Below, one piece after another: positions 8,859 to 23,511 of a stretch of 32,021 bases of DNA. The stretch is from a virus, in IMG/VR virus record IMGVR_UViG_3300025086_000130, positions 1-32,021 of that record; one strand, written 5' to 3'. The notes under the pieces are model-generated. The model did no database searches. It was not told where the DNA came from and saw only the letters and a list, made by a program, of their open reading frames with translations. The translations under genes were made by a program, and so were the position numbers. Numbering within the stretch: the first letter of the stretch is position 1; each line of letters starts with the position of its first letter.

Positions 8859-9033
8859 CAAAGAGATATTAAAGATTGCAATGGAAAACGTCAGTAACCT
8901 AACGAACGAAGAATTTGATAGGTATCAGGTGATACAAAAGATGCCAGTCAAAGAGAGATTTGCTAGAAAAGCACAGGGCGGCAAGGTTTCTCGTGGACGC
9001 TCTGCACAGGGAAGTGCCGAAAAGAATGGCTGA
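8848..9033 (+). CDS. Small hypothetical protein between terminase subunits (61 aa)
   Basis: This small protein has an acidic, helical N-terminal half (DKEILKIAMENVSNLTNEEFDRYQ) and a basic Gly/Arg/Ser-rich tail. It overlaps the small terminase by 11 bases and the large terminase by 8 bases, so it is embedded in the packaging operon. A role beside the terminase is an inference from position only. Confidence 0.55.
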   Translation: MRSDKEILKIAMENVSNLTNEEFDRYQVIQKMPVKERFARKAQGGKVSRGRSAQGSAEKNG

Positions 9034-10678
9034 AGCCGCACCGAAGCGTACCTACCACCTATCCACCGCTGAACGTGCGCGAAGAGCAGCCCAAAAGAAA
9101 CTGCGTGGTGCAAAGAAGAAAGCCCAGCAAGCCACAAAGAAGGCAGAGACGCAAAGAAAGAAAGCCCGTGATCTTGAAAGCACTATTGGACGAGTTGAGA
9201 AAGCTATCACAGCAAGCGGCACTGCAACGATTGACGCTGCCGATCTCAACTCACTTCCCCCGGCTGTATCCGATCTCGTGGGAGATTCCGAAGTTGTCTT
9301 CCAAGCTAACCCCGGACCCCAAGAGGAGTTTCTTTCGGCGGGAGAGCGGGACGTTCTTTACGGTGGGGCTGCTGGTGGCGGTAAATCGTTTGCTTTACTT
9401 GCTGATCCCTTACGGTATTGCCATAACCCCCATCATCGGGGTCTTCTTCTCCGGCGTACCCTCGACGAACTAACAGAACTAATTGACAAGTCACGCCAGC
9501 TTTACACAAAGGCGTTTCCCGGAGCCAAGTTCCGCGAATCCAAATCAACGTGGGTCTTTCCGTCTGGGGCTACGATCTGGTTTACCTACCTCGACAGAGA
9601 TAAAGACGTTACCCGATTTCAGGGACAGGCGTTTAACTGGATAGGCATCGATGAGATTACCCAATACCCTACGCCGTATGTGTGGGACTATTTGCGTTCT
9701 AGGCTTCGTGCTACTGATCCTGAACTTCAAGAACACCTGTACATGCGCTGCACAGCCAACCCCGGAGGTGTGGGTGGCTGGTGGGTCAAGAAGATGTACA
9801 TCGAAGGTACCCCCGAAAACAAAGCATTCCCTGCTTTTGACATAGACACTCGCAAAACATTTGCTTGGCCTAGTGGTCACGAAAAGGCAGGTCAGCCGCT
9901 CTTCTTCCGAAAGTTTGTTCCAGCGCGGTTGACAGATAATCCCCACCTCATGGCTGACGGTCAATACGAGGCTATGTTGCGTTCGCTCCCAGATGTCGAA
10001 CGGAAGAGACTTCTCGAAGGGGATTGGGATGTGGCAGAGGGAGCAGCCTTTCCCGAGTTCTCACGAGTGAAACATGTGGTCGAACATTTTGACATTCCCA
10101 CGAACTGGCCCCGCATACGAGCAGCCGACTACGGGTACTCCGCGCCGTCTTGTGTCTTGTGGGGTGCGATTGACTGGGATAATAATATTTGGGTTTATCG
10201 TGAATTATACGCTAAACACTTGACAGCGGAGCAATTAGCTGATAGAATACTAGAAGCGGAACAACTTGACCCGTTACCTCACTACACCGTACTCGATTCC
10301 TCTTGCTGGAACAAGACCGGATTCGGGCCATCCATAGCAGAGGTGATGATGCGGCAGGGAGTTCGCTGGACTCCATCAGACCGCAACCGTGTTCAGGGCA
10401 AGATGGAAATACACCGTCGTCTAGCAGATGATCCCTACTCGAAGGAACCACGTATACGTTTCTTTTCATCCTGCCAGAACATCGTGAAACAAATAGCTGG
10501 TATACCCCTCTCCAAAACAAACAGCGAAGACGTAGATACCAAAGCTGAAGATCACGCATACGACGCACTTCGATACATGCTGATGACACGAATGAGCGGA
10601 TACGCTTCGATACACCAGCAACTAGGCGCAATCAAGAACCACGTACACAAGGTTCAAGATGAAGTATTTGGATATTAA
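9026..10678 (+). CDS. Terminase large subunit
   Basis: The chosen ATG at 9026 gives 550 residues. Walker A is GGAAGGGKS (113-121), Walker B is WIGIDEIT, and a TANPGGVGGWW segment is typical of terminases. The C-terminal RNase H-like nuclease keeps acidic residues in RAADYGYSAPS and AEDHAYDALRYM. It is the ATP-driven packaging motor and headful or site cutter. Unusually, residues 1-60 form an Ala/Lys/Arg-rich helical extension (RRAAQKKLRGAKKKAQQATK) before the motor. An upstream TTG in frame would make it longer still, but nothing supports that start. Confidence 0.93.
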   Translation: MAEAAPKRTYHLSTAERARRAAQKKLRGAKKKAQQATKKAETQRKKARDLESTIGRVEKAITASGTATIDAADLNSLPPAVSDLVGDSEVVFQANPGPQEEFLSAGERDVLYGGAAGGGKSFALLADPLRYCHNPHHRGLLLRRTLDELTELIDKSRQLYTKAFPGAKFRESKSTWVFPSGATIWFTYLDRDKDVTRFQGQAFNWIGIDEITQYPTPYVWDYLRSRLRATDPELQEHLYMRCTANPGGVGGWWVKKMYIEGTPENKAFPAFDIDTRKTFAWPSGHEKAGQPLFFRKFVPARLTDNPHLMADGQYEAMLRSLPDVERKRLLEGDWDVAEGAAFPEFSRVKHVVEHFDIPTNWPRIRAADYGYSAPSCVLWGAIDWDNNIWVYRELYAKHLTAEQLADRILEAEQLDPLPHYTVLDSSCWNKTGFGPSIAEVMMRQGVRWTPSDRNRVQGKMEIHRRLADDPYSKEPRIRFFSSCQNIVKQIAGIPLSKTNSEDVDTKAEDHAYDALRYMLMTRMSGYASIHQQLGAIKNHVHKVQDEVFGY

Positions 10679-10681
10679 TTT

Positions 10682-12532
10682 ATGGCACAGTTTATTAACG
10701 AATTTGAGGAAATGCTTGCTGCCAGTCCCGATGGTCGTCCTCAAACAATAAATAATACTATTATCGGTGAGTTGTTTAAAAATAGAAATCCTGCCGAAAC
10801 AAAGAGCATGTCGCAGTCAAAGATAAACTCTGCAACAAAATTCTTTGAAACATCTGGTATGTTGGATATGACTCCTGCAGAGATAACTGCAGACCCTGTT
10901 GCTTTTACAAAAATGATGCAGGGAGAAGGTTATCAACAACTAGGCAAAAGCCAAGCTACCAAAGCTCAAGCCTTTTTATCTGGTATTTTAGAGGATGCAG
11001 GACACGGTCAAAGTTGGCCTAGCAGAACATTAAAAACACAACTGGGTAGAGAAAAAGCATTAAACACTTTTGATTTTGAAGTCACTCGCGCAAAAGTAAA
11101 AGAATTTCCTGATGATGTCTTTTCTAAACTAAAGACTTCTGCAGCTAGGTTACAAAGTAAAGGAGACAAAGAAGCTGCAGCACAATTGCTTATGCACATG
11201 TTTGGCGGATATAGACCTGAAGACTTAAATGGTATTAGTATTGATGATATTAACTTTAAGACTGGTGTTGTTGAGAATGTAGAAATTAAAGCGGCAGGAG
11301 CAACAGTTTCTAAGTCTGCTATTTTTTCACCGCCAATTTTAGATGCAATTAAAATGCACATAGGGGATAGAAAAACAGGACTCCTGTTTGAAAGCACACA
11401 AGAAAATTCTAAGCGCATTAACAATGTTTTTGATGAAGTTTTTGGAAAAGACTACTTGACCGTAAGTAGTCCTAAAGGGGGAAAACGGCAAGAACCTATG
11501 CGAGTTAAAAAACTTCGTAATTTAAATGAAAGTATTCTTTCAGGTTACGATGTTTCAGAACAAGCTAGAAAAGTTGTTACTCTTCGCGCTCAATCTAATG
11601 TGGCAGAAGATTACGCAACATCTGCAGCTAGACGAAGACAAATAGAAAAGATTACAGCAAAAAATGTAGCGTTGTTTTCAGCCGGGTCCGAAAGTTCATC
11701 TGTTGCTCAATTTATGAGTGACGTAGGAGTTGTTTCTCCGTCAAACAGAACAGCTACGATTGCGGCTACAAAAGAAGTTTTAGAAGAACTGGGGTATGAG
11801 AACGCAGTTAACCCAGACTTTTATAATTCTCTTCCAGAGTCAGGTGAAGTAATAGGTGGAAAAATAGCGGGACAAGTTGATCCTGAAGTATCTGCCTCTT
11901 TAAATCAAAAACAAATACAGGCAAATTTAAAAAGTGCAGACCTTGATGAAACGGATAGGTTAGAAAACAGACAAAGATTAGAAGAGCTACGTGACCAAAC
12001 TTCCCAAGACACAAAAGTAAAAAAACAACAAAAGACTGTTGCATCAGGCGAAGACTTCATAGCCAAAGCCTTGAAGATGGCAAAGCCACTCAAGGTAGTT
12101 GTTCCCCCTCTTGCAATTGCTGCAGGTGTGCTTGCTGCAAAAGATACGTATGCTAGTACAAGGGAACAACTTGTTGAACTGGGAGTTCCAGACAAGTTAG
12201 CTACAGCAGGTGCAGGAATAGCAGGAGCCACAGAGTTTCTACCAGTTGCTCCTAGTGATGTTGTTTCAATTGCACGATCAATCCCAGAACAACCTAGCAT
12301 GATGCAGTCTATGCAAGCTAGAGGGCAACAGGTTCAAGACATAGGCGATGAGTTCGGTAACCTCGACCAACAGGGACAACCAACACCTTCTGCTCCTGTA
12401 AACATACCCGATCCCGTTCCGACCCAGCAGGGAATGCTGGCTGCAGGTGGAGCAAAACAAAGAGTTAACCAAGCAAGAAGTGCCGCGCTTGCTGGTGAAG
12501 AAACATCAATGAGCGGTTCCTTTCTAAATTAA
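10682..12532 (+). CDS. Tyrosine-recombinase-like protein with long C-terminal extension (616 aa)
   Basis: Residues 40-115 look like an integrase core-binding helical domain. Residues 125-330 follow the catalytic-domain order: Arg I in GYRPEDLNGISIDDI (R178), a LLFES segment (234-238), KKLRNLNES in place of HxxR (R279), and LRAQSNVAEDYAT ending in the possible nucleophile Y311. The two histidine positions are replaced, so activity is uncertain. Residues 330-616 are unlike integrases: a hydrophobic stretch (LKVVVPPLAIAAGVLAA, about 465-481), an Ala/Gly-rich segment and a Gln/Pro-rich tail. The gene lies four bases after terL and before the portal, is visibly AT-richer than its neighbours, and has no clear ribosome site. 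It may be a virion protein. Confidence 0.65.
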   Translation: MAQFINEFEEMLAASPDGRPQTINNTIIGELFKNRNPAETKSMSQSKINSATKFFETSGMLDMTPAEITADPVAFTKMMQGEGYQQLGKSQATKAQAFLSGILEDAGHGQSWPSRTLKTQLGREKALNTFDFEVTRAKVKEFPDDVFSKLKTSAARLQSKGDKEAAAQLLMHMFGGYRPEDLNGISIDDINFKTGVVENVEIKAAGATVSKSAIFSPPILDAIKMHIGDRKTGLLFESTQENSKRINNVFDEVFGKDYLTVSSPKGGKRQEPMRVKKLRNLNESILSGYDVSEQARKVVTLRAQSNVAEDYATSAARRRQIEKITAKNVALFSAGSESSSVAQFMSDVGVVSPSNRTATIAATKEVLEELGYENAVNPDFYNSLPESGEVIGGKIAGQVDPEVSASLNQKQIQANLKSADLDETDRLENRQRLEELRDQTSQDTKVKKQQKTVASGEDFIAKALKMAKPLKVVVPPLAIAAGVLAAKDTYASTREQLVELGVPDKLATAGAGIAGATEFLPVAPSDVVSIARSIPEQPSMMQSMQARGQQVQDIGDEFGNLDQQGQPTPSAPVNIPDPVPTQQGMLAAGGAKQRVNQARSAALAGEETSMSGSFLN

Positions 12533-12552: not shown

Positions 12553-12777
12553 ATGCCTGACAATAATTACAACTACGGTGCAGCATATGTAATGAACTCT
12601 GACAAGGTCAGCGTCGATACAGATGAGGGTGCATCAAAGCTTTACCGTGAAGGTCTGGAGTTTCCAACTCGTGTACAGACAGGCCCAATCACAGAAGATA
12701 TGCCAAAGAAGCAAACTAAGCCAACAGTAGAAGCTTCATTGTTTAAGATGGCAGACGACAGAAACTACTTTAGCTAG
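12553..12777 (+). CDS. Hypothetical protein preceding the portal (74 aa)
   Basis: A small acidic protein with an Asn/Tyr-rich N-terminus (DNNYNYGAAYVMNS) and a Lys/Pro-containing middle (MPKKQTKPTVEASLF). GGGGAG lies seven bases before the ATG. It sits nine bases upstream of the portal gene, so a minor head role is possible but unproven. Confidence 0.6.
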   Translation: MPDNNYNYGAAYVMNSDKVSVDTDEGASKLYREGLEFPTRVQTGPITEDMPKKQTKPTVEASLFKMADDRNYFS

Positions 12778-12785
12778 GACTTCAA

Positions 12786-14891
12786 ATGTCTGATAATTTC
12801 CTACAACCCCCAGACGATAGTGAAGTTGTAGTCGTAGCCCCCGAAGAGGAGATGCCCGGTCTTGCCGCGCACATCCGAAAGAAGTTCCAAGACTCTGAAA
12901 ATGGTCGCTTTGCTTACGAGCAACGTTGGCTAAAAGCGTTTAAGAACTTTCGTGGCATTTACGACTCAACTACCCAGTATCGTGACAGTGAAAAGTCGAA
13001 GGTATTCATTAAGATTACCAAGACAAAGGTGCTTGCTGCTTACGGACAGATTATTGACATCCTGTTCGCAAACAAAAAGTTTCCGTTGGTTGTAGAGCCA
13101 ACTCCTGTCCCCGAAGGTATTGCAGAGTTTGCTCACATGCAAACCCCGCTTGATGAGATCATCGATCCCTACGGATTTGAGGGAGACGGAAGAACCCTAG
13201 AGCCGGGAGCATTAGAAGCTTCCCCACCTAGCGGTGACTTTTTAGGAGGATTAAAAGACAGGTACAGTGGTGCGCCTCTTGCAGAGGGACCAGCTTTAGC
13301 CGGAGAGCCACAAATTTCTCCCGCACAAAAAGCTGCCCTAAACATGGAGAAGGTCATTCACGATCAGCTTCTTGACACAAGTGCAGTCAATGTATTTAGA
13401 AGTGCTATCTTTGAAGCATCTCTCTTAGGAACAGGGGTCGTAAAAGGTCCGTTTAACTTTACTAAAAGAGTACACCAATGGGAGCGAGACGACGAGGGTT
13501 CTCGTGTGTATGCTCCCTACGAAAGAATTGTTCCGCGTATGGAACATGTTTCCGCTTGGGACTTTCACCCTGATCCAGCAGCAACGAGTATAGAAGATTG
13601 TGAGTACGTCATACAGCGACATCGTATGAACCGACTGCAGCTTCGTAATCTTATCAATCATCCGTACTTCTACAAGGATGCTATTGAAGAAGTTATTGCA
13701 AAGGGATCAAACTACGAAGACAAGTATTACGAAGATACTATTCGTGAAGATGAAACCGAAGCGTACTATCAAGAGAACAGGTTTGAGGTTCTTGAATACT
13801 GGGGTGTTCTTGATGCTAAGTTTGCACAAGAAGTAGGAATGGATATTCCCGACGGTTTGGACCCTATTGATCAACTGCAGGTGAATGTGTGGGTCTGTGG
13901 TAATTGCGTCCTTCGTTGTGTTTTAAATCCGTTTACACCAGCACGTATTCCCTACCAAGTTTTTCCATACGAAATCAATCCCTATCAAATATGGGGCGTT
14001 GGCGTAGCGGAAAACATGGAAGATGCACAAATGCTGATGAACGGTCACGTTCGTATGGCAATTGACAACCTAGCCCTAGCTGGCAACCTTGTCTTTGACG
14101 TAGATGAAGCAAGCTTGGTTCCCGGACAAAACATGGACATCTTCCCCGGAAAGATATTCCGTCGCCAGTCAGGAGTAACAGGAACAGCTATCAACGGCCT
14201 CAAGTTTCCTAACACAGCACCTGAAAACATTCAGATGTATCAGATTAGCCGACAGCTTGCAGATGAAGAGACAGGTCTTCCGTCAATCATGCACGGTCAA
14301 ACTGGAGTAACAGGAACAGGTCGTACAGCATCAGGACTGTCCATGCTATTAGGTGGAGCAAGTCTATCACTCAAGACTGTAATCAAGAACATCGATGACT
14401 CACTGTTAAAGCCTCTTGGAGAAGCGTACTTCCAGTGGAACATGCAGTTCAACGATGACGCTCCCGATATTGAGGGCGACTTAGAGATTAAACCACGCGG
14501 CGTAGCTGCCGTTATGCAAAAAGAAGTTCGTAGTCAAAGACTGACTACCCTGCTGCAGACTGTATCCAACCCAATGTTAGCACCATTTATCAAAATACCA
14601 AACCTCATGCGGGAGCTTGCTATTGCACAGGATATCGATCCTGACAGCTTAGTAAACGACGTAAACGAGGCACAGATATTTGCAGAGATGTTGAAAGGAT
14701 TAGCAGCTAATGCTCAACAAGGAACAGGCCCGGAAGGTCAGCCCACTGGTGACCAACAAGCAAGCATGGGACAGTCTGGAGACGTACCTGCAGGAGCAAA
14801 TCCAGATGACGCTTCGGGCGTTGGTGGGGGCCAGATCGGAACTGGAACTGTTCCGGCTGCAGGGGAAGATAACTTCACTGGAAATGCTTAA
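12786..14891 (+). CDS. Portal protein (podovirus-type, 701 aa)
   Basis: A large acidic portal with conserved-looking core segments: an N-terminal FAYEQRWLKAFKNFRGIYD, VFIKITKTKVLAAYGQIIDILF, VSAWDFHPDPAA, YEINPYQIWGVGVAENM, and TGRTASGLSMLLGGAS (a region typical of P22/T7-style portals). It forms the dodecameric vertex ring through which DNA is packaged and to which the tail adaptor binds. The final 60 residues are low-complexity Gly/Gln/Pro-rich, and the last 182 bases are overlapped out of frame by another gene. AGGA lies upstream of the start. Confidence 0.9.
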   Translation: MSDNFLQPPDDSEVVVVAPEEEMPGLAAHIRKKFQDSENGRFAYEQRWLKAFKNFRGIYDSTTQYRDSEKSKVFIKITKTKVLAAYGQIIDILFANKKFPLVVEPTPVPEGIAEFAHMQTPLDEIIDPYGFEGDGRTLEPGALEASPPSGDFLGGLKDRYSGAPLAEGPALAGEPQISPAQKAALNMEKVIHDQLLDTSAVNVFRSAIFEASLLGTGVVKGPFNFTKRVHQWERDDEGSRVYAPYERIVPRMEHVSAWDFHPDPAATSIEDCEYVIQRHRMNRLQLRNLINHPYFYKDAIEEVIAKGSNYEDKYYEDTIREDETEAYYQENRFEVLEYWGVLDAKFAQEVGMDIPDGLDPIDQLQVNVWVCGNCVLRCVLNPFTPARIPYQVFPYEINPYQIWGVGVAENMEDAQMLMNGHVRMAIDNLALAGNLVFDVDEASLVPGQNMDIFPGKIFRRQSGVTGTAINGLKFPNTAPENIQMYQISRQLADEETGLPSIMHGQTGVTGTGRTASGLSMLLGGASLSLKTVIKNIDDSLLKPLGEAYFQWNMQFNDDAPDIEGDLEIKPRGVAAVMQKEVRSQRLTTLLQTVSNPMLAPFIKIPNLMRELAIAQDIDPDSLVNDVNEAQIFAEMLKGLAANAQQGTGPEGQPTGDQQASMGQSGDVPAGANPDDASGVGGGQIGTGTVPAAGEDNFTGNA

Positions 14892-14940: not shown

Positions 14941-17145
14941 ATGAGCCTAAGTTCACTAGGAATGCGATTACTACCCGGAGTAGCTGTAAGAACAGTGGCG
15001 GGTGGGTTTGCGCCTAAACCTAGTGGAATTAGACAAGATCAAATAATTGGAACTGGAAGAGCGAGGGGTACAGGGCCAGTTGGATCGACAGTAAGTGGTG
15101 ATGACGGGGATGACAATCAAATAACTCCTGAAGAGTATCAAAGACAAGTAGATTACTTTGCAGACAACAAGTTTGCAGGATCGTACAGCCCGGATAAAGA
15201 ATATCCAGACACACTTTCAGGATACTTGCAAAAATCCCTAGACTACGCCCTAGCTCCTCACGTAGAGTTTAACAAACTAACTCAAACGTACCGTGCTACA
15301 GGTCCGGGGGGAGCAATAGAGTCTATGATGGGGCCACTTGGTCCACTCGCGGCTTTGGGTCAAAAAGCAAACATGGCAAACTTAGAAAGATTACAGAGTA
15401 AAGTTGATGCGGGAGAAAAAGGATACGGCGTAGGTTTACTAGACAATCAGATAGTTGGTACAAGTCCACTTCCTGAATTTATGCAGGGTACTATGTTTGA
15501 TCCCGGTTACGGTACATTTTCAGGAATGGTACCGGGAACTCCCAGAGGGATTAGCGAAGCTCAACACTTAAGAAATCTACAAACTGCTCTAACAAATGCC
15601 GCTACACCACTGGGGTATGATGCTGATGAGATTTTTGGTAAGTCAATACCCGATGTAACTTCTGCGTACAATTTGCTTACGTATGGTGATGTAAGAGGCG
15701 CAGACATGGGCTTAGAAAACATTGCAGAAGACGTTCGCAGTTCTGTTGTGACAAGTATGGTGCCTAACCCATTAGGATCACAGTATGGGTACGTAAAGGC
15801 TCCCGTAACAAGTGGGGGATACAGGGGTATACCTCAAGGTTACGTAACTACCACACTCTCTGGAGTTTCAGGAACAGAAGTTTTTGATCAATCACAATAT
15901 GAACAACAAAGACAGGCTAACTTTGATGCTACAGTAGCTGCCGGACAAGCTAGGTCTGCGCCAAAGTCTTATGCTCCTGATTACGGTAATGACGATTATG
16001 GTAATGAAGACGAAGGTCGAGATGATGGACCTAGTGCTAGTGATACCAGCGATGGCGGCGGCGGCGGTATGGGTGGCGGCTTTGGAAGTGTGAGTGATAA
16101 CTTTGGTGGCGGTGACGCTATGGGCGGTCGGATCGGTATGCGAAACGGCGGGGAAGCATCCCCACAGATGGGCTTCGTTAACAAAGACCCCCGTACCGTA
16201 TCTGACAGTCAGGGCATAGCAGACAACAGGTATACTTCTGTACCACAGGGTTCGTTTGTAATGAACCAACCTGCAAACGAAATGTACAAGGATGATTTAG
16301 ACGTAGTTCTTGGGGACGCTGAAAAACGAGCAGGATCACCCCAAAACGACGGAAACATGGTAGACGTAGCTCTATCCGACGGTGAACGCCTGATACGCCC
16401 TGAAGTTGTAGACTTTGTAGAGAAGAAATACGGCGGCGGGTTTCTTGACAACATAAACAATACAGGCAAGCCTGAAGTGCAACGCCGTCAAGTTAAGTAC
16501 GGAGCTAAGATAGGCGCAGCAGACGGTGGATTTTTAGCCGATCAAGGTATGGAAGCGAAAGATGTAGGTAAAGATGTTCCTCTGGAAGATTACCAACCTA
16601 TATCCGAAAAGTTAAGAGCAAAGCTAACTAAGTTTGCAGCTAAGAAACCTAAAAGAGGCGACATCAGGGACTTTATTAAGAGTTTACCCCCCGAAGAAAA
16701 ACTTACAGTTTTATTCTTAACTGAAACACAGTCTACTACAGACCCTATTGAAAGCATGGAAGCAATTGGCGAAGTAGTAAACAACCGTATAAACTCTAAT
16801 TATTATGATTTTAAAGGTATAAAGACTTTGGATGATGCCCTACTAAAACAAACTAAACGGGGAGCATTTCAGTTTTCAGGGTTAGAACCTTCTACGTTTT
16901 TTGAACGAGCTAAAGAAGTAAAGGGTGGTACAGCAAGTAAAGGTTTAGCTAAAGCATATGCTGCAGCCCAAAATGTCTTAGACCCCGAAACAGAGGGAGC
17001 TAACAGATTAGACCCTAACACATTATTCTACACACGCAAAGACGCTCCTAGTCAGTGGATGCGTGAGTCTAAAGATTTAGAATTTTCTACGGAACTGGGT
17101 GGACACGAGTTTTATCGTACGTTCGCATCACCAGAATTTCCGTAA
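14941..17145 (+). CDS. Structural protein with C-terminal SleB/Hydrolase_2-like cell-wall hydrolase domain (734 aa)
   Basis: Residues 1-340 are Gly/Pro/Asn-rich and contain no motif I recognise. An acidic and poly-Gly linker follows at about 348-400. Residues 455-520 carry DVALSDGERLIRPEVV and a GKPEV segment, a motif I recall from other marine phage virion proteins. Residues 587-734 match the SleB-type hydrolase order: a likely catalytic Glu in LTETQ (about E595), EAIGEVVNNRI, RGAFQFSGL, NTLFYTR and GGHEFYRTF. It is probably a virion-associated lysin that thins peptidoglycan during DNA entry. AAGGA precedes the ATG, one base after the preceding stop codon. Confidence 0.75.
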   Translation: MSLSSLGMRLLPGVAVRTVAGGFAPKPSGIRQDQIIGTGRARGTGPVGSTVSGDDGDDNQITPEEYQRQVDYFADNKFAGSYSPDKEYPDTLSGYLQKSLDYALAPHVEFNKLTQTYRATGPGGAIESMMGPLGPLAALGQKANMANLERLQSKVDAGEKGYGVGLLDNQIVGTSPLPEFMQGTMFDPGYGTFSGMVPGTPRGISEAQHLRNLQTALTNAATPLGYDADEIFGKSIPDVTSAYNLLTYGDVRGADMGLENIAEDVRSSVVTSMVPNPLGSQYGYVKAPVTSGGYRGIPQGYVTTTLSGVSGTEVFDQSQYEQQRQANFDATVAAGQARSAPKSYAPDYGNDDYGNEDEGRDDGPSASDTSDGGGGGMGGGFGSVSDNFGGGDAMGGRIGMRNGGEASPQMGFVNKDPRTVSDSQGIADNRYTSVPQGSFVMNQPANEMYKDDLDVVLGDAEKRAGSPQNDGNMVDVALSDGERLIRPEVVDFVEKKYGGGFLDNINNTGKPEVQRRQVKYGAKIGAADGGFLADQGMEAKDVGKDVPLEDYQPISEKLRAKLTKFAAKKPKRGDIRDFIKSLPPEEKLTVLFLTETQSTTDPIESMEAIGEVVNNRINSNYYDFKGIKTLDDALLKQTKRGAFQFSGLEPSTFFERAKEVKGGTASKGLAKAYAAAQNVLDPETEGANRLDPNTLFYTRKDAPSQWMRESKDLEFSTELGGHEFYRTFASPEFP

Positions 17146-22428: not shown

Positions 22429-23511
22429 ATGCCCCCACGCAATCACAAGGATTGGATTAAGACTCCCAACGTAGAACACATCAGTTCGTCGATCTACTCT
22501 AGTCACGACATCTACAAACAGGAACTAGATAAGATATTCTCTAAAGTGTGGATACCCATGTGTCACTCCAGCGAACTACTATGCTTGGGGGATTACAGAA
22601 CTACACAGATAGCCTTGCAAAATGTGGTAGCGGTTCGTTTTGAGAACAACGTAATTAAAACATTCTTGACCGACAAAGTAAAATCCCCCGCTGGTAACAA
22701 TCTGTCTATGGTCTATCATTCTGGCGGCTGGCAGGAATTACCCTGCGAAGTAAAGCATGGGGGTATGGTCTGGACTACCCTAAACACTAACCCAGATCAA
22801 AGCGTAGATGAGTGGACAGGTGGTGCATTCGACTGTATCGCGGATGCTATCGACACTGAAGAGATGGAAGTCTTTCACTACCACAAGGCAGTAATAGATA
22901 CAAACTACAAGCTGTGGCACGATACCAACAGCGAGTTCTATCACGATTTCATGCACTACTTTAATCGTGTCTCAGGGTTTAACGATGAATACTTTGCTAG
23001 AAAAAACATACCATTCGATAACGGACATGTTAATGTTAGCAGCTTCACCGTTAACTACGAGGAGTACGATGGGTTTGAGGATAGAGGAGAGCTTAGTTTC
23101 CCTAACCTGCCACCCAATCAGTGGTACATGGTTGACCTGTTCCCCGGATTTAATTTTAATCTTCGGGGTAGTGCTTATCGAAGCGATAGCGTTACACCTC
23201 TTGGGCCAAACAAAGTTCTTATTGAGTTTCGCGGCTACGGTCTTAAGAAGGATACCCCAGAGGAACGGCAGACTCGTATCAAGCATCACAACTCTATCTG
23301 GGGTCCATTCGGGCGTAACCTACACGAAGACTTGATAGGCGTAGCTGGTCAGGGTACAACAATGCGCGAGGGAACCGAACCTCGTAATATCCTGCACGGA
23401 CGACATGAGAACAGCACCATCCACGACGAAGTTGGTATGCGTCACTACTACGCAGAGTGGAGCAAATGGATGGGCTTGGATGCAAGTAAGTCTTGGCAAT
23501 TAGCGGCGTAG
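22429..23511 (+). CDS. Rieske-oxygenase-like protein lacking the Rieske cluster ligands (360 aa)
   Basis: Residues 15-80 (SSSIYSSHDIYKQELDKIFSKVW, then GDYRTTQIALQNVVAVR) follow the start of Rieske non-haem iron oxygenase alpha subunits. Where CxH and CxxH ligands should stand (about 80-105), the protein reads FLTDKVKSPAGNN and MVYHSGGW, so no [2Fe-2S] site is possible and the domain is shortened. The catalytic domain keeps NYKLWHDTNSEFYHDFMH (H172, H176) and a later D301 in NLHEDLIGV, candidates for the 2-His-1-carboxylate iron site. The H-x3-H spacing is one residue shorter than is common. Substrate is unknown. It may be a structural scaffold or an enzyme with outside electrons. There is no clear ribosome site. 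Confidence 0.75.
   Translation: MPPRNHKDWIKTPNVEHISSSIYSSHDIYKQELDKIFSKVWIPMCHSSELLCLGDYRTTQIALQNVVAVRFENNVIKTFLTDKVKSPAGNNLSMVYHSGGWQELPCEVKHGGMVWTTLNTNPDQSVDEWTGGAFDCIADAIDTEEMEVFHYHKAVIDTNYKLWHDTNSEFYHDFMHYFNRVSGFNDEYFARKNIPFDNGHVNVSSFTVNYEEYDGFEDRGELSFPNLPPNQWYMVDLFPGFNFNLRGSAYRSDSVTPLGPNKVLIEFRGYGLKKDTPEERQTRIKHHNSIWGPFGRNLHEDLIGVAGQGTTMREGTEPRNILHGRHENSTIHDEVGMRHYYAEWSKWMGLDASKSWQLAA

Follow-up and report, generated by a model that had tools for sequence, protein, structure and literature searches.

Xer recombinases, archaeal XerA among them, and phage integrases such as those of lambda and Brujita (PF00589; 4a8e and 5hxy) combine a core-binding domain with a catalytic domain that carries Arg-I, Lys, Arg-II and Tyr. 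Cre of phage P1, which acts at loxP, closes or resolves the genome ends of that phage. Among phages of the HMO-2011 type, an integrase gene, where there is one, lies upstream of the replication genes, and many subgroups lack it (PMC9038755). The recombinase fold also serves phages outside integration, as in MrpR/YopR of SPbeta and SroF of phi3T; MrpR has lost Arg-I and most of the catalytic residues and kept Lys and Tyr (PMC10516654).

A recombinase gene between terminase and portal

The window, a stretch of 32,021 nucleotides (IMG/VR record IMGVR_UViG_3300025086_000130), covers part of the genome of a podovirus-like marine phage of the HMO-2011 type, with a portal 46-52% identical to those of HTVC033P, CRP phages and HMO-2011. 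Its genes follow the order TerS, TerL, recombinase gene, small gene, portal, hydrolase-containing protein, conserved unknown and coat. The original prediction placed a tyrosine-recombinase-like reading frame between TerL and the portal. This frame is real: it lies at 10682-12532 on the + strand, encodes 616 aa, and is assigned by its fold, by the match of its family profile to Xer structures and by its presence at 102/102 loci. The flanking genes are TerL (8960-10678, +; PHROG terminase large subunit, 2.8e-59; Pfam Terminase_6N) and the portal gene (12786-14891, +; SU10_portal, 3.3e-26).

No intergenic space adjoins the recombinase gene, and its start codon falls -4 to +5 nt from the TerL stop codon in 86/87 homologues. 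This position suggests, at the level of sequence, that translation of the recombinase is coupled to that of TerL and that it is co-expressed with the terminase. The absence of a clear ribosome site, correctly noted in the original prediction, has an ordinary reading because the start codon sits at the TerL stop. The gene had also been described as AT-richer than its neighbours, which holds for the N-terminal recombinase part (the head; GC 0.38) and fails for the C-terminal extension (the tail; GC 0.48), with TerL at 0.51 and the portal at 0.47. Heads are AT-richer than portals in 81/87 homologues.

Some other genes of these phages deserve mention. Between recombinase and portal lies a small gene (12554-12778, +) with a good ribosome site, encoding about 74 aa that begin MPDNNYNYG; similar MPxNNYNYG proteins occupy the same position in genomes G002 and G004. 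The gene directly 3' of the portal (14941-17145 in the window; L104:1431-4007, L107:116-2650 and L003:7005-8978) has a common middle with GGR.G and VALSDGE-like motifs and differing end domains: a cell-wall hydrolase (PF07486) in the window and, judged by eye only, a lysozyme-like domain in L003 and a 'YRGEP' domain recalling ADP-ribosyltransferases in G006 and G007. The window also carries a gene for the alpha subunit of a ring-hydroxylating (Rieske-type) oxygenase (22429-23511, +; PF00848, E 1.3e-7), related to an HMO-2011 gene annotated as methanesulfonate monooxygenase.

Fold and active-site residues

Direct sequence searches with the window protein alone returned nothing convincing in Pfam, PHROGs or PDB sequences; a tblastn search of 50,697 phage records recovered no relatives, either for it or for five other alleles, and plasmids yielded none for it. 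The family was gathered via the portal, the window protein alone having retrieved none. At family level, matches to the phage integrases appear: 30/70 homologues match PF00589 and 29/70 match the PHROG integrase family. The family profile matches XerC-like 4a8e with E 1e-10 and XerD with 2e-7, whereas the profile of the window type by itself gets no better than 0.005. A profile-profile comparison connects the two head types (hhalign, probability 92%, E 6e-7).

An AlphaFold model run with 43 window-type heads reached a pLDDT of 88. Closest to it in the PDB are XerC-like, XerA, Cre, Brujita, Tn1549 and lambda integrases, and against 4a8e it gave a Foldseek probability of 1.00 (E 1.6e-4) and a Z score of 11.9 over 253 residues with an rmsd of 6.0. 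Residues 1 to ~139 (10682-11098, +) form a helical, core-binding-like domain with pLDDT mostly >84, as the original prediction proposed; when the structures are aligned over their whole length with Xer, Tn1549 Int and Cre, the match begins near residues 16-26. The catalytic domain (residues ~140-334; 11099-11683, +) aligns with Brujita integrase (Z 12.4), 4a8e (11.9) and the lambda Int core (9.5), with Cre at about 9.

We computed conservation on 87 distinct homologues, in which the catalytic domain has a median identity of 18%. Of 112 well-occupied columns, invariance reaches 97% or more at only four: R178, F236, R279 and Y311. The three integrase-like positions named in the original prediction are placed as claimed: Arg-I is R178 (11213-11215, +), Arg-II is R279 (11516-11518, +) and the nucleophile position is Y311 (11612-11614, +), each kept in 87/87, although the loop before Y311 varies in length and the Tyr column leans on the aligner. 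Neither a fold without the recombinase core nor a homologue without these residues was found. The prediction had named neither the acidic residue D181, present in the window protein, nor K203 (11288-11290, +), which takes the place of the catalytic lysine where strand 2 ends; this residue is K in 43/43 window-type heads and in 46/87 members of the full family, whose alignment is loose. Across these homologues, given their divergence, the conservation of R178, R279 and Y311 is beyond what chance would produce.

Both histidine positions are replaced, again as predicted. The first His of the superfamily pattern (HxxR) is K276 in the window protein and is replaced in every family member seen; the second His/Trp position is R302 (11585-11587, +), and the 87 homologues divide there into 44 with R and 43 with H. 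Accepted tyrosine recombinases also vary somewhat at both positions, so membership of the superfamily is judged by the fold and the remaining residues. The spacing from Arg-II to the second His/Trp position, 22-25 residues in the family, matches that of Cre, XerH and lambda Int (Table 3, PMC10516654).

The replaced histidines raise the alternative of a catalytically dead fold that works as a DNA-binding regulator, in the manner of MrpR/YopR of SPbeta and SroF of phi3T, and YopR and SroF are indeed among the fold matches (Z 7.0-8.3). However, Arg-I, Arg-II and Tyr are kept in 87/87 homologues, whereas MrpR lost Arg-I (PMC10516654), and the gene sits in a structural operon. We regard a dead regulator as very improbable. 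Taken as a claim of its own, that the protein is a catalytically active tyrosine recombinase is very probable.

The gene is universal in an uncultured marine clade

We fetched 102 loci that span the end of TerL to the start of the portal gene, a few contigs being fetched twice. All 102 hold one reading frame of 532-790 aa in this interval, for a total of 87 distinct proteins, so the expectation that related phages would carry the gene at the same locus held throughout the clade. By contrast, 62/62 loci of the sister HTVC033P-type lineage have only small reading frames in the interval and no recombinase, and the isolates HMO-2011, CRP-207, CHOED, HTVC033P and phiM6 lack it. A scan anchored on window-type heads only, the alignment of the other heads (A5) being too divergent for a collection scan, found 61 loci; 58 were new, each with TerL and/or portal adjoining, and none of the 61 placed a window-type head away from TerL or portal. 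The gene is thus fixed at one place and universal in its uncultured marine clade. Together with the fold and the conserved residues, this fixed place in all homologous phages upholds the original idea of a recombinase recruited into the packaging module.

Fifteen records carry one recombinase copy each and no other PF00589 match. In one of the records, G002 (56.8 kb), the two ends (L093 start, L095 end) share a 766-bp overlap with 85.5% identity, as though assembly had continued round the genome into another strain; because the record wraps on itself, its gene content is essentially complete.

A sole tyrosine recombinase with its active-site residues kept, whose closest predicted viral structures are annotated as integrases, could be the oddly placed integrase of temperate phages. 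Its heads would then differ because each allele uses another attachment site, integrase genes being often exchanged. However, the gene lies in the structural operon, whereas HMO-2011-type integrases lie upstream of the replication module (PMC9038755); it is universal in the clade rather than optional; and its C-terminal extension of ~230-300 residues is unusual for an integrase. A peptide-pattern scan for the portal in ~85,000 bacterial and archaeal species, among which the hosts may be unsampled, found no provirus of the clade; it gave two MAG contigs at 53% identity, without the recombinase gene. Among 385 alphaproteobacterial genomes there were one close portal match (the MAG already found in the species scan), three distant ones and no clade provirus. 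Nine records were free of HTH_3 and S24 repressors, six large records contained no tRNA gene, and the window showed no T-loop motif of a tRNA; an attP site is not recognisable from sequence alone. The provirus, repressor and location evidence lowers the integrase reading and does not remove it; we consider it rather unlikely, and the next in rank after the packaging- or virion-linked recombinase discussed below.

Heads and tails are exchanged separately

Close relatives differ in which recombinase they carry. In L001, L004 and L006 the portals are 98-99% identical and the tails 84-88% identical, yet the heads lack BLAST similarity; L217 and L222 likewise carry unlike heads on similar tails. 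Overall, portals are 98-100% identical among phages that have heads with no detectable similarity to one another on the same tail. The reverse exchange is seen in L009/L010 and L078/L080, where heads are held in common and tails differ. In the window, the tail common to L004 and L006, whose heads differ, spans 12023-12532 (+), with blastn identity resuming at 12023 and 12039 (95% and 90% identical).

In 13 head-exchange pairs the 5' border of the exchanged unit is the TerL stop codon: DNA identity breaks within 7 nt of the start codon in 12 pairs and at 23 nt in the remaining one. The 3' border varies, identity resuming ~1390-1450 nt into the gene or closer to the stop codon, and the exchanged unit is confined to the recombinase gene. 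Tail similarity follows portal similarity (Mantel r 0.53) more closely than head similarity does (0.26). As read from these alignments, close relatives swap the recombinase gene in parts, in some cases the head and in others the tail.

Such extreme allele diversity at a fixed locus, among phages with 98-100% identical portals and in a unit limited to one gene, could mark a conflict module: an allele-specific recombinase that attacks prophages, host elements or relatives infecting the same cell, or one that propagates by putting its own allele in place of that of a co-infecting phage. The variable 3' border fits homologous recombination rather than a site-specific cassette, and a self-spreading cassette of that kind is not favoured, since the 3' borders vary. 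We hold the conflict module to be quite improbable.

The C-terminal extension

The original prediction gave the protein an extension with a hydrophobic segment and a Gln/Pro-rich tail, and both are present. The extension contains a long predicted helix (residues 401-461; 11882-12064, +) that AlphaFold secondary structure gives with low confidence (pLDDT ~38-59), followed by a hydropathy peak at a hydrophobic, small-residue-rich (Ala/Pro-rich) segment (residues ~466-499; 12077-12178, +) and a Gln/Pro-rich, low-confidence, disordered end. Nearly every homologue has such a hydropathy peak 72-92% of the way along the protein, though the sequence differs. The tail has no significant match in Pfam, PHROGs or other reading frames of these phages. 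In G006 and G007 the tail and the downstream hydrolase protein have ends that look alike; homology between the two was considered and was not significant.

The protein ends in GSFLN (12515-12529, +), an example of a [GSN]F[LIVM] motif that occurs within the last 45 residues of 42/52 non-redundant tails against 3.1 in shuffles, a statistic that ignores relatedness. In four genomes a core protein of 175-189 aa encoded far from the recombinase (L093:17609-18148, L097:5286-5813, L106:15147-15716 and L108:12686-13249) has a recombinase-tail-like, acidic tail that contains SFL or NFM, as in NSFLRAEE and ENFMTMKK; its homologues in phages without the recombinase end GLMA, GFMA or PSLLS. The common end motif is a hint that recombinase and core protein may have a docking partner in common.

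Coupling to TerL, an Xer-like fold and universality in the clade would also suit a resolvase of concatemers or dimers of the replicating genome, which would work with the terminase in the producing cell and never be packaged. Such a resolvase would not need the conserved hydrophobic segment and end motif, and sister lineages with the same packaging module manage without a recombinase. Moreover, no dif-like site was found: lox/dif-like palindromes number 0-2 per genome, near the shuffled level, with no candidate among them. This resolvase is, in our estimate, unlikely. Inverted repeats in the window included no standout pair pointing to an invertase.

A proposed link to packaging or the virion

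The reading that we favour, tentatively, is that of a packaging- or virion-linked recombinase. The protein would be made late, together with TerL and the portal. Its N-terminal head would bind, cut and rejoin DNA, at a site that would differ between alleles. The C-terminal part, with its long helix, hydrophobic segment, disordered tail and F-L-type end motif, would attach the recombinase to the packaging machine, the portal or the interior of the phage head. Its likeliest job would be to act on the phage genome during packaging, or just after entry if carried in the virion, for example by closing or resolving genome ends, with Cre of P1 as the analogy. The original prediction had likewise suggested that the protein might work on genome ends or enter the cell with the DNA.

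We favour this reading because the recombinase fold and R178, R279 and Y311 persist in 87/87 very divergent proteins; the gene is in 102/102 clade loci and absent from 62/62 sister loci; the head-anchored scan finds it only beside TerL or portal; its start codon sits at the TerL stop in 86/87; each record has one copy and no other PF00589 match; the tail tracks the portal better than the head does (Mantel r 0.53 against 0.26); and the end motif is common to a second core protein in several genomes. Against it we count that the tail lacks significant homology elsewhere and is itself exchanged, that the window protein has other residues at both histidine positions and that no lox- or dif-like palindrome was found. 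The whole chain, of an active, late-made recombinase, attached by its tail to the packaging machine or virion and acting on the phage genome, is plausible, at somewhat short of an even chance.

In a more specific and more doubtful version, the phages would carry a virion-borne modular recombinase, with an exchangeable DNA-cutting head and a tail that targets capsid or portal; it would be delivered with the genome, and its allele would set the sites joined after entry. The literature searched offered nothing useful on the virion proteome of HMO-2011-type phages and nothing relevant on virion-packaged phage integrases. If true, phages would have their own equivalent of packaged integrases, fixed throughout a marine clade that is uncultured.

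Comparison with known systems

A recombinase that is universal, single-copy, coupled to TerL and far more variable than the flanking genes is unlike integrases as optional lysogeny genes. Its clade-wide place between TerL and portal suggests that recombination may be connected with the way the genome is packaged or delivered, not with ordinary dormancy. If the recombinase acts during packaging or entry, site-specific recombination would be linked to genome delivery. The exchange of heads and tails would also offer a natural series of swapped DNA-binding modules. More generally, an integrase-like match in a marine viral contig need not imply a temperate phage.

The family resembles Xer, XerA and phage integrases in its core-binding and catalytic domains, in Arg-I, Lys, Arg-II and Tyr and in the spacing from Arg-II to the second His/Trp. 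It differs from them in that no member seen keeps the first His and half have Arg for the second, and in its long C-terminal extension, its TerL-portal position and the apparent absence of a link to a lysogeny module. With Cre it has in common a phage tyrosine recombinase fold and a possible role in genome closure after entry; unlike Cre, which acts at loxP and has no tail of such a kind, it comes from phages in which no lox-like site was found. The integrases of HMO-2011-type phages, such as that of CRP-3, belong to the same wider phage type and the same enzyme superfamily, whereas the window recombinase is part of the packaging module and occurs throughout its clade. MrpR/YopR and SroF are likewise recombinase folds in phages, serving outside integration; unlike MrpR, which regulates lysogeny, the window family keeps both arginines and the tyrosine.
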